From NCBI GenBank assembly GCA_938006335.1, contig CALLMF010000019.1, positions 1 through 64,000 on the forward strand: a DNA stretch of 64,000 nucleotides, in the 5' to 3' direction. Position 1 is the stretch's first letter. The number at the start of each line of letters is the position of its first letter. Shown here piece by piece: positions 58,726 to 63,981 of the stretch. This DNA comes from an uncultured Granulosicoccaceae bacterium. GTDB lineage: Bacteria; Pseudomonadota; Gammaproteobacteria; Granulosicoccales; Granulosicoccaceae. The position numbers and the translations under genes are program-made. A model generated the notes under the pieces. It was not told the DNA's origin. It saw only the letters and a list, made by a program, of their open reading frames with translations, and made no database searches.

Positions 58726-59718
58726 GTGGGTTTCTTCAGCTTTCTCAAACGACAGAAGGATCACAAGCAGGAGGATGTCAGTCGCGATGACACCGCTCTT
58801 GAAGGACAGCTCGGCAAGACGCGGTCCCGTTTTCGCGACAATCTGCTCGACTTCCTGCTCGGTGACAAACCGATCGACGACGACTTGCTCGAAGAGCTGG
58901 AGAGCCAGTTGATCATGGCCGACGTCGGGGTGGATGCCACGCGTCGCATCATGCAGGCTCTCAACACCCGCGTCGCCCGCTCGGAAGTCGGCAACAGCGA
59001 CGCGCTGCGGCTTGCATTGCGCCACGAGCTTCTCGACATACTCAAGCCCGTGCACGCGCCACTGGAAATCCCCGAACAGGACGGCCCGTTCGTGATCCTT
59101 GTCGTCGGCGTCAACGGATCCGGAAAAACCACAACCATCGGCAAACTGGCTCGCCAGATGACGGATGGGGGCTTGTCGGTGATGCTTGCTGCAGGAGATA
59201 CCTTTCGAGCAGCCGCCGTAGAACAGCTCGAAACCTGGGGTCAGCGTAACGAGGTGACGGTCGTGTCGCAAGGCTCGGGTGCCGATTCGGCATCGGTGAT
59301 TTTCGATGCGCTGCAGTCAGCTACGGCGCGCAACATCGATGTGCTGATTGCCGACACGGCCGGCCGCCTGCACACCCAGTCGAACCTGATGGACGAGCTT
59401 GCCAAGGTCAAGCGAGTGCTTGGCAAGCTCGACGCCAACGCCCCACACGAAACACTGATCGTGCTCGACGGCGGCACTGGACAGAACGCCCTCGCCCAGG
59501 CACAGCAGTTCAACCAGGCGATCGGACTGACCGGCATGGCAATCACCAAGCTCGACGGCACCGCCAAGGGTGGGGTAGTGTTTGCAATTGCCGAGGCGCT
59601 GGGCCTGCCGATACGTTTCATTGGCGTCGGTGAAGGCGTATTCGACCTGCAGGTGTTCGAGGCCGAGCGCTTTGTCGATGCGTTGGTGGACCCCGACGCA
59701 TCGGCGACCCAGTCTTGA
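58726..59718 (+). CDS. ftsY: Signal recognition particle receptor FtsY, short form
   Basis: A 330-residue NG-domain GTPase. The GTG at 58726 (MGFFSFLKRQKDHKQ) gives a short basic/amphipathic start; the acidic A domain found in the Escherichia coli protein (497 residues) is absent. G motifs: GVNGSGKTTTIGKLA, DTFRAAAVEQL, ADTAGRLHTQ and TKLDGTAKGG. The LDGGTGQNAL segment has Gly where most have Ala-Thr. It docks ribosome-SRP complexes at the membrane. ftsE overlaps its stop. Confidence 0.93.
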   Translation: MGFFSFLKRQKDHKQEDVSRDDTALEGQLGKTRSRFRDNLLDFLLGDKPIDDDLLEELESQLIMADVGVDATRRIMQALNTRVARSEVGNSDALRLALRHELLDILKPVHAPLEIPEQDGPFVILVVGVNGSGKTTTIGKLARQMTDGGLSVMLAAGDTFRAAAVEQLETWGQRNEVTVVSQGSGADSASVIFDALQSATARNIDVLIADTAGRLHTQSNLMDELAKVKRVLGKLDANAPHETLIVLDGGTGQNALAQAQQFNQAIGLTGMAITKLDGTAKGGVVFAIAEALGLPIRFIGVGEGVFDLQVFEAERFVDALVDPDASATQS

Positions 59719-60425
59719 TCCAGTTCGACGCAGTCAGTCTTCACTTCGGCGCTGGGCAAACGGCGCTGGACGATGTGTCTTTCGAGATCGAGGCAGGGAG
59801 TTTCACGTTTCTTGTCGGGCACTCGGGCGCAGGCAAGAGCTCGCTGTTGCAGCTGATCGCACGACTCGCTCGACCCAGCAGCGGCTCGATCACCGTAGGC
59901 GGAATCGACTACGCCACACTGCGCACACGCCATGAGCCGGCCTTGCGCCGACAGATGGGCGTGATTTTCCAGGACAATCAACTGCTTGGTGATCGCAACG
60001 TCTTCGACAACGTTGCACTGCCCCTGATCATTGGCGGATTTCGCTACAAGGACGTATTGACGCGCGTGGCAGCGGCGCTGGAGCGTGTGGACCTCGCGCC
60101 GTTCGCCAACGCGTATCCGGCCACACTGTCCGGCGGACAACAACAACGGGTGGGCATTGCCCGAGCGTTGGTGGCACGCCCCCGGCTGCTGTTGGCCGAT
60201 GAACCCACCGGCAACCTCGACGCTGGAATGAGCCAGGAGATCATGGAGCTGTTGCTGCAGTTCCACCGTTCCGGAGTCACCGTGTTGCTGGCCACCCATG
60301 ATGTCAGCCTGCTCCAGGCTTACGACTTGGCGAGACTGGAGCTGTCCGCTGGACGGTGCGTAAGCCCGGCGGTTGCACCGCAGCGCGCGCGTCACCCCTT
60401 GCGAGGTCGCCATGCCCATCAGTGA
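59715..60425 (+). CDS. ftsE: Cell division ATPase FtsE
   Basis: A 236-residue ATPase. The start is TTG at 59715, overlapping the ftsY stop (TTGA). Motifs: GHSGAGKSS, DNQLLGDRNVFDNVALPL, LSGGQQQRVGIARALV and LLLADEPTGNLD. It works with FtsX at the septum to control peptidoglycan hydrolases. It overlaps ftsX by 14 bases. Confidence 0.94.
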   Translation: MIQFDAVSLHFGAGQTALDDVSFEIEAGSFTFLVGHSGAGKSSLLQLIARLARPSSGSITVGGIDYATLRTRHEPALRRQMGVIFQDNQLLGDRNVFDNVALPLIIGGFRYKDVLTRVAAALERVDLAPFANAYPATLSGGQQQRVGIARALVARPRLLLADEPTGNLDAGMSQEIMELLLQFHRSGVTVLLATHDVSLLQAYDLARLELSAGRCVSPAVAPQRARHPLRGRHAHQ

Positions 60426-61368
60426 CTCGATAACGCGAGCCGCCGGTTCGCAGCGTGGGTACACCGCACGAGGCTATGCCTGGCGGCGCACCCGAACGCG
60501 ACTTGCAGCCCACCCGGTGGCCAGTAGTGTGTCGTTGCTGGTGCTTGGCATCGTGCTCGCGCTGCCGGTACTGTTGAGTTTTCTGGCAATGGCACTGGAC
60601 GACCATCGGGGTGACGGGGACCGAGCCGTCACCCTGACCGCCTACCTCGAGACAAGCGTCAACGACCTCGACGGCGCAGCGCTCGCCAGCCGCATTGCGG
60701 CCCGACCCGATGTACAGACCACACGCTACATATCGCGCGACGAGGCCCTCGCCACTTTCGAGGCAGAAAGCGACCTCGGCGATGCTCTGGACCTGCTCGA
60801 AGAAAATCCCTTGCCCGGTGCCATCGTCATCACGCCAGAACATGCGGTTGTCGCGAGGGACCGCATGCAGGCACTGTCAGATGAATTTCTCGGCTTGAGC
60901 GAGATCGTGGAGGTGCGCTACGACCTTCAATGGGTCGAGCGCCTACAGGCGGTGGTGTCGCTATTGCGCGTTGCCGCCGTGCTTGTCACCGGCTTCCTGA
61001 CCCTGACCGCCCTGCTCGTCATCGCCAACACCATTCGGCTCGAACTGCTCGCTCGACGTGCCGAGCGGGAAGTGTGCCACTTGCTCGGCGCGAGCCGCAG
61101 CTTTGTGAACCGACCGTTTCTGTACACAGGCGTGTTGTATGGCCTGGTCGGCGGCGTACTCGCGGCGGCGATGGCTGTGGTGGCCTTCGGCTTGCTCAAG
61201 GCGCCGGCGGACACCCTGGCTGGCCTGTACGGAGTGGACCAGGGCATCGCCTGGCCTGAACTGAGCCGGGTTGCGGCGGTGCCGCTACTGGGCGCAGCCC
61301 TGGGACTCGCGGCGGCCGTGACGACACTCTATTCAGCGGCCCCGGGCGCGAATGTTACCAACAGTTGA
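60412..61368 (+). CDS. ftsX: Cell division permease FtsX
   Basis: A 318-residue protein with four helices (one at about 44-65, three after 190) and a periplasmic domain in between. VTLTAYLETSVND and ARRAEREVCHLLGASRSFVNRPFLYTG are the standard FtsX features. The ATG at 60412 overlaps the end of ftsE. It is the last gene of the ftsYEX operon; rpoH follows with its own control region. Confidence 0.92.
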   Translation: MPISDSITRAAGSQRGYTARGYAWRRTRTRLAAHPVASSVSLLVLGIVLALPVLLSFLAMALDDHRGDGDRAVTLTAYLETSVNDLDGAALASRIAARPDVQTTRYISRDEALATFEAESDLGDALDLLEENPLPGAIVITPEHAVVARDRMQALSDEFLGLSEIVEVRYDLQWVERLQAVVSLLRVAAVLVTGFLTLTALLVIANTIRLELLARRAEREVCHLLGASRSFVNRPFLYTGVLYGLVGGVLAAAMAVVAFGLLKAPADTLAGLYGVDQGIAWPELSRVAAVPLLGAALGLAAAVTTLYSAAPGANVTNS

Positions 61369-61381
61369 GATCCAAGCTGTC

Positions 61382-61428
61382 GAAACTGCGTACAAGCTGC
61401 TGTTAAATAAAGAAATTTCGGCAGTTTC
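61382..61428. repeat. Inverted repeat downstream of ftsX
   Basis: GAAACTGC (61382-61389) pairs with GCAGTTTC (61421-61428) across a 31-base AT-rich loop. It has no T tract. It may stabilise the ftsX mRNA end or be part of the rpoH control region. Confidence 0.4.
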
Positions 61429-61484
61429 TGGACGTTCCGGCACAACGGTAGACGCTCAAGGAACCCGGGAACTTTGCCGCTGAT

Positions 61485-61511
61485 TTAGCACTCTCACCAG
61501 TAGAGTGCTAG
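61485..61511 (+). promoter_or_regulatory. CIRCE operator (HrcA site) upstream of rpoH
   Basis: TTAGCACTC (61485-61493), nine bases, then GAGTGCTAG (61503-61511). This matches the consensus TTAGCACTC-N9-GAGTGCTAA in 17 of 18 arm positions. It ends 35 bases before the rpoH ATG. It should bind HrcA, the heat-sensitive repressor of chaperone genes, and block rpoH transcription when HrcA is active. Confidence 0.93.
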
Positions 61512-61546
61512 CCTAGTTCAAGCACGTACTTCTGGAGGTATCAGTT

Positions 61547-62416
61547 ATGACCACAGCATTGACGCCCAAATCTCAGAGCCTTGCGCTTCCGTCAGTCAGC
61601 GATGACCTGAACGGCTATTTTGCGCGAATCGCCAACATCGAGCTGCTGTCCGTCGAGCAGGAACAAACCTTGGCTCGCCGCCTGCGCGACAGCGAGGATC
61701 TCGACGCTGCTCGCCAGCTGGTCATGTCCCAGTTGCGTTTTGTGGTGCATATCGCCCGCAGTTACAAGGGCTATGGTCTGCCCATGGCTGACCTGGTGCA
61801 GGAAGGCAATATTGGTCTGATGAAGGCGGTCAAGCGTTTCGATCCCGATGTCGGCGTGCGGCTGATCTCGTTTGCCGTGCACTGGATCCGCGCGGAAATC
61901 CACGAGTACGTCATTCGCAACTGGCGCATCGTCAAGGTCGCGACCACCAAGGCCCAGCGCAAACTCTTCTTCAAGCTCCGAAGCGAGAAGAAGGCACTCA
62001 ACTGGTTCAGCCAGGAAGAGGTCGAGCGGGTTGCCGAGGATCTGAACGTCGATCCGAAGGTGGTTGTCGAGATGGAATCGCGCATGCATGGCCACGACAG
62101 CGCGTTTGACGCTCCGGCGGGTGCTAGTGAAGATCGCGTGTCGCTTGCTCCGGCAGAACTACTGCATCAGGAAGCGGACGATCCTTCAGTTGTCGTGGAA
62201 CGCAACGACGGATACGAACGATCGATGGAAGGTCTGGCAGCGGGCTTCGAGACGCTGGACGATCGGAGCCGGACCATTCTGGAACGTCGTTGGCTGTCCG
62301 ATGAAAAGTCGACCCTGCACGAATTGGCCGCCGAGTACGGCGTGTCGGCGGAGCGTATCCGCCAGATCGAGAAGGCCGCGATGAAGAAGCTGAAGACTCA
62401 GCTTCTCGCAGCCTGA
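61547..62416 (+). CDS. rpoH: Heat-shock sigma factor RpoH (sigma-32)
   Basis: A 289-residue sigma factor. Region 2 includes YGLPMADLVQEGNIGLMKAV and RLISFAVHWIRAEIHEYVIRN; the RpoH box QRKLFFKLRS sets it apart from RpoD. Region 4 is present (LHELAAEYGVSAERIRQIEK). The ATG has TGGAGG upstream. A CIRCE site in front of the gene suggests HrcA control of sigma-32 in addition to the usual RNA and chaperone controls. It follows ftsX by 178 bases, as in enteric bacteria. Confidence 0.96.
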   Translation: MTTALTPKSQSLALPSVSDDLNGYFARIANIELLSVEQEQTLARRLRDSEDLDAARQLVMSQLRFVVHIARSYKGYGLPMADLVQEGNIGLMKAVKRFDPDVGVRLISFAVHWIRAEIHEYVIRNWRIVKVATTKAQRKLFFKLRSEKKALNWFSQEEVERVAEDLNVDPKVVVEMESRMHGHDSAFDAPAGASEDRVSLAPAELLHQEADDPSVVVERNDGYERSMEGLAAGFETLDDRSRTILERRWLSDEKSTLHELAAEYGVSAERIRQIEKAAMKKLKTQLLAA

Positions 62417-62435
62417 ACATCACATCACGTTGATG

Positions 62436-62463
62436 AAGCCGGTAGTGGCACGTCACTACCGGC
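62436..62463. terminator. Stem-loop after rpoH
   Basis: AGCCGGTAGTG pairs with CACTACCGGCT across a six-base loop. No T tract follows on either strand, so it may be a weak terminator or an RNA end stabiliser between rpoH and the convergent kinase gene. Confidence 0.5.
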
Positions 62464-62496
62464 TGTAGACCCATCGAGTGACTCGGCACGTGGCGC

Positions 62497-63981
62497 TCAC
62501 GCGGTTCTTCGGTTACTCGGCACGGGGTTGAAAGAAAACTCCACTTTCAAGCCTGGATCGTTGTCGTGCAGCGCGACCTCGGCCCCGTGAACGTTGGCAA
62601 TCGCCTTGACCATGCTCAGCCCAAGCCCTGAACCGGGTGTCGTACGACTGGTTTCCAGCCGATACAGACGCTGAAACACTTTCTCGCGCTTGTCTTCCGG
62701 GATACCCGGACCCGTATCAGAAATCGCTAGCCACACCTTGCCGTCGCGCAGACCGCCATCGATATTGATTGCCACGCCCTCCGGGCAGTGATTGATGGCG
62801 TTCTCAATGACATTGACTGTCATTTGCAACAGCAGCTGGGTATCTCCCGTTACCGGCAGATCAGCCGTAGTTGCGATGTGATTGCCAAGCACTTGTCCGG
62901 ACGCCTCGGCAACAGGCTCAAACACTTCGCACGCCGTTGCGACAATATCTGCGAGATTAACCGGCTTGAATTGCGCCTTGAGGGATCCCGCTTCGACTTG
63001 AGAAACGCGCAACAGAGCTTCGAACGTGGCATTGATGTGCTCCGCCTCTGACAGTGCCTGTTCGAGTGATTCGCGGGCCACTTCACCGGCGGAGCCTTCA
63101 AACGCGTCGACTTGACGACTGGCATCGTCCAGATAACTGTAGAGGCGATTCAGCGGTGTCTTCAGATCGTGCGCAATATCAGTGCTCACTTCGCGAATGC
63201 TATCGACATTGTCCTCCAGCCGATCGAGCGCAGCGTTGATTTGCAGAGACATGATGTCAACATCGTCGACGGCATAACTGACCGGAACGCGCTGGTTGAG
63301 TTCGCCATCGGCGACGCGGGCGAGCGTGCTGCTCAGACCACTCAGTCGACAATCAAACCAGCGGGAAATCCACACGGCGGCCAGAATCGACAACACCATG
63401 GAGACACCCAGAGCCCACATCAGGCAGTTGAGTGCCACTGCCCGCAAATCGCTCAGCGGCTCAAGGCTCCGCCCGATCGACAATTGATAGTCGCCAAGAT
63501 TCTTGTTCAGGAACCGGTAGGTGCTGTCGACATCTTCAACACCCAGCGTCTTGCCATTCCACTCGTGATAGCCCACGGTACCCGCGCTTGTGGTGATATT
63601 GCTCAACACTCGCTCACCATTCGGCGCAAACAAGGCGTAGCCCAGGGACTCGCGCATCGGGCCGGGTTTTTCCAGACGACGAAGCAAGTGTTCTTCGACA
63701 CCCTCGATACCTTGTTGCTCGTAGATACCGGCCACGATCTTGTGTCTCAAATCAAGTGTGCCGTCCAGATGATCGACGGTGCGCTGCTGCAGCGCCGAGT
63801 AGAACGAGTAGCCGGTGACTCCAACGGTGCTGCAGAACAACAACCAGAACACCATCCCTATGCGGAACGGCGAACTGCGCAGTAGCGCGAAACGCGCAAG
63901 CGCCGCCCTGACCAGGCGCTCACGAGCATTGACTGGTGCCGGAATGTCCGATCGGTCCAGAGTCAGCGGTGTCGCCGTCAT
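62497..63981 (-). CDS. Sensor histidine kinase
   Basis: A 494-residue kinase. Two helices (about 41-62 and 190-212) flank a periplasmic sensor of about 125 residues. HAMP follows (STLARVADGELNQRVP), then HisKA (DIAHDLKTPLNRLYSYLD; phospho-His about 272) and HATPase (NVIENAINHC, DTGPGIP, GSGLGLSMVKAIANVHGAEV). The ATG at 63981 is 19 bases from the window edge, so an adjacent response regulator may lie just outside. It resembles the kinase at 45654-47213 throughout. Confidence 0.88.
   Translation of the reverse strand: MTATPLTLDRSDIPAPVNARERLVRAALARFALLRSSPFRIGMVFWLLFCSTVGVTGYSFYSALQQRTVDHLDGTLDLRHKIVAGIYEQQGIEGVEEHLLRRLEKPGPMRESLGYALFAPNGERVLSNITTSAGTVGYHEWNGKTLGVEDVDSTYRFLNKNLGDYQLSIGRSLEPLSDLRAVALNCLMWALGVSMVLSILAAVWISRWFDCRLSGLSSTLARVADGELNQRVPVSYAVDDVDIMSLQINAALDRLEDNVDSIREVSTDIAHDLKTPLNRLYSYLDDASRQVDAFEGSAGEVARESLEQALSEAEHINATFEALLRVSQVEAGSLKAQFKPVNLADIVATACEVFEPVAEASGQVLGNHIATTADLPVTGDTQLLLQMTVNVIENAINHCPEGVAINIDGGLRDGKVWLAISDTGPGIPEDKREKVFQRLYRLETSRTTPGSGLGLSMVKAIANVHGAEVALHDNDPGLKVEFSFNPVPSNRRTA

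Follow-up and report, generated by a model that had tools for sequence, protein, structure and literature searches.

A predicted HrcA operator overlapping a putative sigma-E type promoter in front of rpoH in an uncultured Granulosicoccaceae bacterium and in related families

We observe that a CIRCE element, the predicted operator of HrcA, lies directly upstream of the sigma-32 gene rpoH in an uncultured Granulosicoccaceae bacterium and that it shares its bases with a sigma-E type promoter sequence (Table 1; the window is the whole stretch of 64,000 nucleotides that was analyzed). Three stress-control systems probably meet at this one spot before rpoH, in an arrangement found in many related families. 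Our preferred reading, to which we assign a probability of about 0.7 on the strength of sequence comparison, is that the element genuinely serves as an HrcA operator and is interleaved, in a constant register, with a sigma-E promoter driving rpoH, and that HrcA would block transcription by sigma-E, creating a gate that responds to both the cytoplasm and the envelope. The site is real, conserved and more interesting than first noted, and it is still a variant of known parts. The first-pass annotation of the window had pictured a CIRCE operator directly upstream of rpoH, which holds, but it missed the sigma-E type promoter beneath it.

The element reads TTAGCACTC-TCACCAGTA-GAGTGCTAG and departs from TTAGCACTC-N9-GAGTGCTAA at 1 of 18 positions, with 35 bases between its end and the ATG of rpoH, so that the near-perfect CIRCE claimed for this place is borne out. 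It is the sole match at up to three mismatches within the 64-kb window, for which shuffled sequence gives an expectation of 0.02. The gene order in the window is ftsE-ftsX-rpoH (the order in E. coli is ftsX-rpoH), and 178 bases lie between the stop of ftsX, whose start we placed at an in-frame ATG within a longest frame running from 60373, and the start of rpoH. A place in front of a chaperone operon, which is usual for CIRCE but not a necessary feature, is not what we find here, as the target is rpoH.

Table 1. Coordinates of the rpoH upstream region and neighboring genes in the window.
Feature	Position	Strand	Basis or remark
ftsE, upstream neighbor	59715..60425	+	best family match FtsE, 260.8 bits vs cut-off 264.85
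ftsX, upstream neighbor	60412..61368	+	255 bits, at cut-off 255
predicted sigma-E -35, GGAACTT	61468..61474	+	exact consensus match; 10 bases before CIRCE
CIRCE (predicted HrcA operator)	61485..61511	+	1 mismatch to consensus
predicted sigma-E -10, TCTCA	61492..61496	+	final two bases of the left CIRCE arm plus the three spacer bases that follow
ribosome-binding site, GGAGGTA	61534..61540	+	sequence, by eye
rpoH, sigma-32, 289 aa	61547..62416	+	NF005143 406 bits; TIGR02392 391 bits; both over cut-offs

With respect to the regulators, the surveyed genome (3.8 Mb, 93.75% complete) carries one hrcA gene (G000:C20:26304-26978, 209 bits), the presence of which the first-pass annotation had named as a check on its proposal. 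The encoded protein has both HrcA Pfam domains, PF01628 and PF03444, over cut-off, the DNA-binding one barely (21.9 vs 21), and the next frame was read by eye as grpE. Scanning the whole genome at up to one mismatch yields two CIRCE sites only, one at rpoH and one at groES (groES frame identified by eye), and none at this threshold before hrcA. A third CIRCE-like site (three mismatches) was taken as chance, because the reversed pattern, used as a control, yielded an equal number of matches (one). The genome also encodes RpoE (TIGR02939, 313 bits, over cut-off), followed downstream by a frame that we read by eye as rseA. Upstream of rpoE we find TGAACTA-N16-TCTCA, with a -10 identical to that at rpoH, although 67 of 1000 shuffles of the 600-base stretch also produce a hit, and this site is weak when taken alone.

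The palindrome is conserved in close relatives, which the first-pass annotation had likewise set as a check. In a set of 39 genomes that includes the window's own (24 from the same genus and 15 from other families; at most two mismatches, coordinates compared by hand), CIRCE precedes rpoH in every one of the 22 same-genus genomes that yielded rpoH, whole or partial; the remaining two gave no rpoH match above the level of RpoS and stand outside this count. Among the relatives from other families, 10 of 15 have the element upstream of rpoH. Four of these 15 genomes (G025, G026, G029 and G030) have neither an hrcA match nor any CIRCE at up to two mismatches, and one (G036) has hrcA and lacks CIRCE at rpoH at that threshold. 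A genome that is 62% complete (G028) has CIRCE and no hrcA match. In another of the genomes (G033), a tandem pair of CIRCE elements stands before rpoH, 5 bases apart.

A similar pattern is seen in a class-wide sample of one genome per family (104 genomes, of which 94 have rpoH, with 95 rpoH genes in total; the other 10, where no rpoH reached E 1e-75, are not counted). Here CIRCE, defined by at most three mismatches within about 350 bases before rpoH, is present at 63 of the 69 rpoH genes from genomes with hrcA vs 3 of the 26 from genomes without it (Fisher's test, P = 1.5e-13, not tree-corrected; Fisher tests here ignore ancestry), nine of the genomes being counted as hrcA-less from the overall tally. 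The exceptions run in both directions, with three hrcA-less cases of CIRCE and six rpoH genes without it in hrcA-bearing genomes. One genome (G055) has two rpoH genes, with CIRCE at one and not at the other. Another (G090) has no hrcA match, yet its rpoH is preceded by a CIRCE with three mismatches next to a sigma-E type -35, which may be what remains of a former control by HrcA. Furthermore, CIRCE at up to three mismatches is found at 41 of the best 80 named rpoH loci, an uneven sample consisting of the best tblastn matches to the window's RpoH among the matches listed, two of which have hardly any upstream sequence. With hrcA present, the palindrome conserved and the element tracking hrcA across families, the predicted placement of rpoH under HrcA control is well supported by the comparison of genomes.

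Sigma-E promoters can have a -10 of the TCTGA form, about 16 bases after the -35. The gap between the predicted -35 and -10 is 17 bases in the window and 16 when the -35 stands 9 bases before CIRCE, as it does in most relatives; the window is an exception in its own genus, where the distance is 9 bases in the other 21 sites vs 10 here. A -35 matching at least 5 of 7 positions of the consensus (GGAACTT/TCAAA, as given in excerpts of PMC4890791) is present at all 22 same-genus rpoH CIRCE sites. Over 69 CIRCE-bearing rpoH loci (41 named ones from among the matches listed and 28 others), the best such -35 lies 9 bases before the element in 41 and 10 bases before it in 8. In the class sample, a -35 of this quality stands 8 to 10 bases before CIRCE at 43 of 66 sites, and 9 to 10 bases before it at 41, whereas 2000 mononucleotide shuffles averaged 2.2 such sites and never exceeded 10 (all shuffles in this work are mononucleotide). 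A strict definition of the full promoter gives an overlap with 46 of the 66 CIRCE sites and leaves 20 sites without an overlapping promoter; in 40 of the 46 the -10 keeps a single register. The third spacer base, which is the last base of the -10, is A in 40 of 43 class-sample sites with the -35 vs 9 of 23 without it. Since the CIRCE consensus itself supplies the TC of the -10, only the -35 and this final A are informative.

The information content of 19 genus sequences is 1.56 bits per column in the -35, 2.0 and 1.95 in the two CIRCE arms, 1.07 in the stretch between -35 and CIRCE, and 0.16 to 0.53 in the outer blocks. In the window's intergenic region alone, an equally good promoter match under the strict definition is reached in 27 of 1000 shuffles. 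As single-genome matches of this kind are weak by themselves, both here and at rpoE, the case rests on conservation.

CIRCE sites at other genes served as controls for this association. A -35 at 8 to 10 bases is found at 2 of 30 groES CIRCE sites (0 of 20 in the same genus, 2 of 10 in the others), and at 9 to 10 bases at 1 of 30; it is found at none of 4 hrcA sites and at none of 6 unassigned sites. An A occupies the third spacer position at 2 of the groES sites (counted as 29 with a narrower motif and as 30 otherwise) and at 3 of the 4 hrcA sites. We also observe that CIRCE degeneracy is strand-asymmetric, with A3>G at 17 of 66 rpoH and 6 of 29 groES sites, and T25>C at 2 of 66 and 0 of 29, respectively.

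These observations suggest the following mechanism. In E. coli, sigma-E transcription starts about six bases after the -10, and by this rule the start in the window is predicted at about 61501 to 61505, at the left edge of the CIRCE right arm. In unstressed cells, active HrcA bound to CIRCE would cover both the -10 and the start and would therefore act by occlusion of the sigma-E RNA polymerase. If HrcA became inactive, as in heat shock, the promoter would be open, and free sigma-E, released under envelope stress, could then transcribe rpoH. Elsewhere, HrcA is held to become inactive in heat shock because misfolded protein ties up GroEL, and HrcA activity is GroEL-dependent in the bacteria studied, so that the site would read the chaperone state of the cytoplasm while sigma-E reports on the envelope. 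If HrcA does block sigma-E transcription in this manner, induction of rpoH would call for envelope stress at a time when HrcA activity is lost. Because transcription is predicted to begin within the operator, the left arm would be missing from the sigma-E transcript and the palindrome could not fold into a hairpin there, which would restrict an RNA-level role to transcripts with a start further upstream. The suggestion in the first-pass annotation that the element might also act in RNA is narrowed to the same extent: it may apply to such longer transcripts and does not fit the predicted sigma-E transcript.

Other readings of the same site differ in which part of it would be at work. HrcA might repress rpoH through CIRCE while the working promoter is one for sigma-70, the GGAACTT/TCNNA elements being minor or a relic; we consider this unlikely, although it is the alternative that we take most seriously. 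It draws on the 20 of 66 class-sample sites without an overlapping sigma-E promoter under the strict definition, as well as on a betaproteobacterial branch in which CIRCE often occurs without the -35. However, the -35 is retained at every one of the 22 genus sites and at 43 of the 66 class-sample sites, and a consensus scan of 61300-61560 yields no sigma-70 match (nor a terminator). That the palindrome is a chance occurrence or a non-functional relic seems to us scarcely credible: three of the 26 rpoH genes in hrcA-less genomes do have a CIRCE match, one of them at three mismatches (G090), but chance would supply 0.02 per window, and conservation speaks strongly against it, as the element is kept in all 22 genus members amid diverged flanks.

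It is also very improbable, in our view, that the palindrome is no DNA operator and instead works as a hairpin or thermometer in the leader of the rpoH mRNA. A hairpin could form in a longer transcript, and the left-arm change A3>G, a substitution that preserves pairing as G-U, is commoner at rpoH than its mirror T25>C (17 vs 2 of 66). The same asymmetry is nevertheless present at groES CIRCE (6 vs 0 of 29), the arms are close to the HrcA consensus, the element tracks hrcA, and the predicted start falls within it. A thermometer or leader role is likewise not favored by folding, with z-scores of only -0.91 for 61475-61560 and +1.33 for 61503-61600, which is near the predicted shorter leader, or by the search for Rfam families, which gave no match in 61300-62500 at E values up to 1.

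With respect to the evolution of this composite site, we placed its states on a tree of 79 RpoH proteins (the window and 78 named loci from among the matches listed, L045 and L079 having been left out for want of upstream sequence). The composite state occurs in 26 rows, distributed over several gammaproteobacterial lines and the betaproteobacteria among the matches listed. Ten Enterobacterales on one supported branch lack CIRCE but have a sigma-E type promoter, and CIRCE with no in-register -35 is the state of the Oxalobacteraceae and of most Burkholderiaceae rows (both among the matches listed); this latter state is seen at 16 loci of the named set, and a single branch composed mostly of betaproteobacteria accounts for 14 of these, again among the matches listed. 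The composite label requires 13 changes on the tree, in which many forks are poorly resolved, vs a shuffled mean of 22.2, which indicates that it is inherited but has been gained or lost several times.

It is possible, and we hold it tentatively at somewhat less than even odds, that the composite of sigma-E promoter and HrcA operator is ancestral for rpoH in Gamma- and Betaproteobacteria, where it would act as a joint gate licensing sigma-32, and that the bare sigma-E promoter of enterobacteria (rpoH P3) is a remnant after the loss of HrcA. Under the strict definition, a sigma-E promoter is found at 49 of 66 CIRCE-bearing rpoH genes of the class sample vs 4.3 expected from shuffles, and at 6 of 29 CIRCE-less ones (4 of 23 in hrcA-less genomes) vs 2.2 of 29 expected. 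The idea of a bare promoter left behind after HrcA loss is weakened by these numbers, since only 6 of the 29 CIRCE-less rpoH genes have the promoter.

Two side observations concern individual lineages. In Lysobacteraceae (loci L006, L012, L020 and L117, and genome G035), the rpoH palindrome resembles TTAGCAGTC-N9-GACTGCTAA and not TTAGCACTC-N9-GAGTGCTAA. A search for this variant at up to three mismatches, which sought a matching change at groES as might accompany an altered HrcA specificity, returned only the rpoH site in G035, G129 and G131, and one further, unassigned site in each of G130 and G132. Moreover, an rpoH locus titled Verrucomicrobia (L017) clusters with Nevskiaceae in the RpoH tree, and the label is therefore probably a binning error.

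Regulation by HrcA and regulation by sigma-32 tend to be described as alternatives, because the model organism E. coli is not known to have HrcA. Nor is a CIRCE known at its rpoH promoter P3, and an HrcA family search over control genomes gave no match in E. coli. Here the two modes of control would be stacked, the repressor site being placed over the very promoter by which sigma-E would act on sigma-32. If this is true, the textbook E. coli circuit would be a trimmed form of a more widespread one, and a fragment of some 120 bases would suffice to test directly whether the gate needs both signals or either.

Several parts of this arrangement have precedents. Permina and Gelfand are said to have described HrcA regulons in beta- and gammaproteobacteria in 2003 and may already list rpoH sites, and a plain CIRCE at rpoH in these classes may well be catalogued in earlier literature. 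Among the open-access matches listed, mostly judged by title and the opening of the abstract, we found none that describes rpoH as an HrcA target in Gamma- or Betaproteobacteria, and none that describes a combined sigma-E/HrcA site. In Geobacter sulfurreducens, a single deltaproteobacterium, a CIRCE likewise lies directly upstream of rpoH, at position -51, as predicted by genome comparison (Table 8 of PMC545781, 2004); excerpts of that report do not mention a sigma-E or composite site at rpoH. The CIRCE before rpoH noted in the first-pass annotation is real, and a CIRCE in this place already had a precedent in print, for Geobacter sulfurreducens (PMC545781, as excerpted). The P3 promoter of E. 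coli rpoH, described as being under sigma-E control in excerpts of PMC8103513, is likewise a sigma-E promoter placed before rpoH. With the HrcA/CIRCE systems of groESL and dnaK operons, the site shares the operator sequence and spacing and the presence of the regulator gene, the other site in this genome being at groES. Unlike in those systems, the target here is a heat shock sigma factor, and the operator overlies a sigma-E type promoter.
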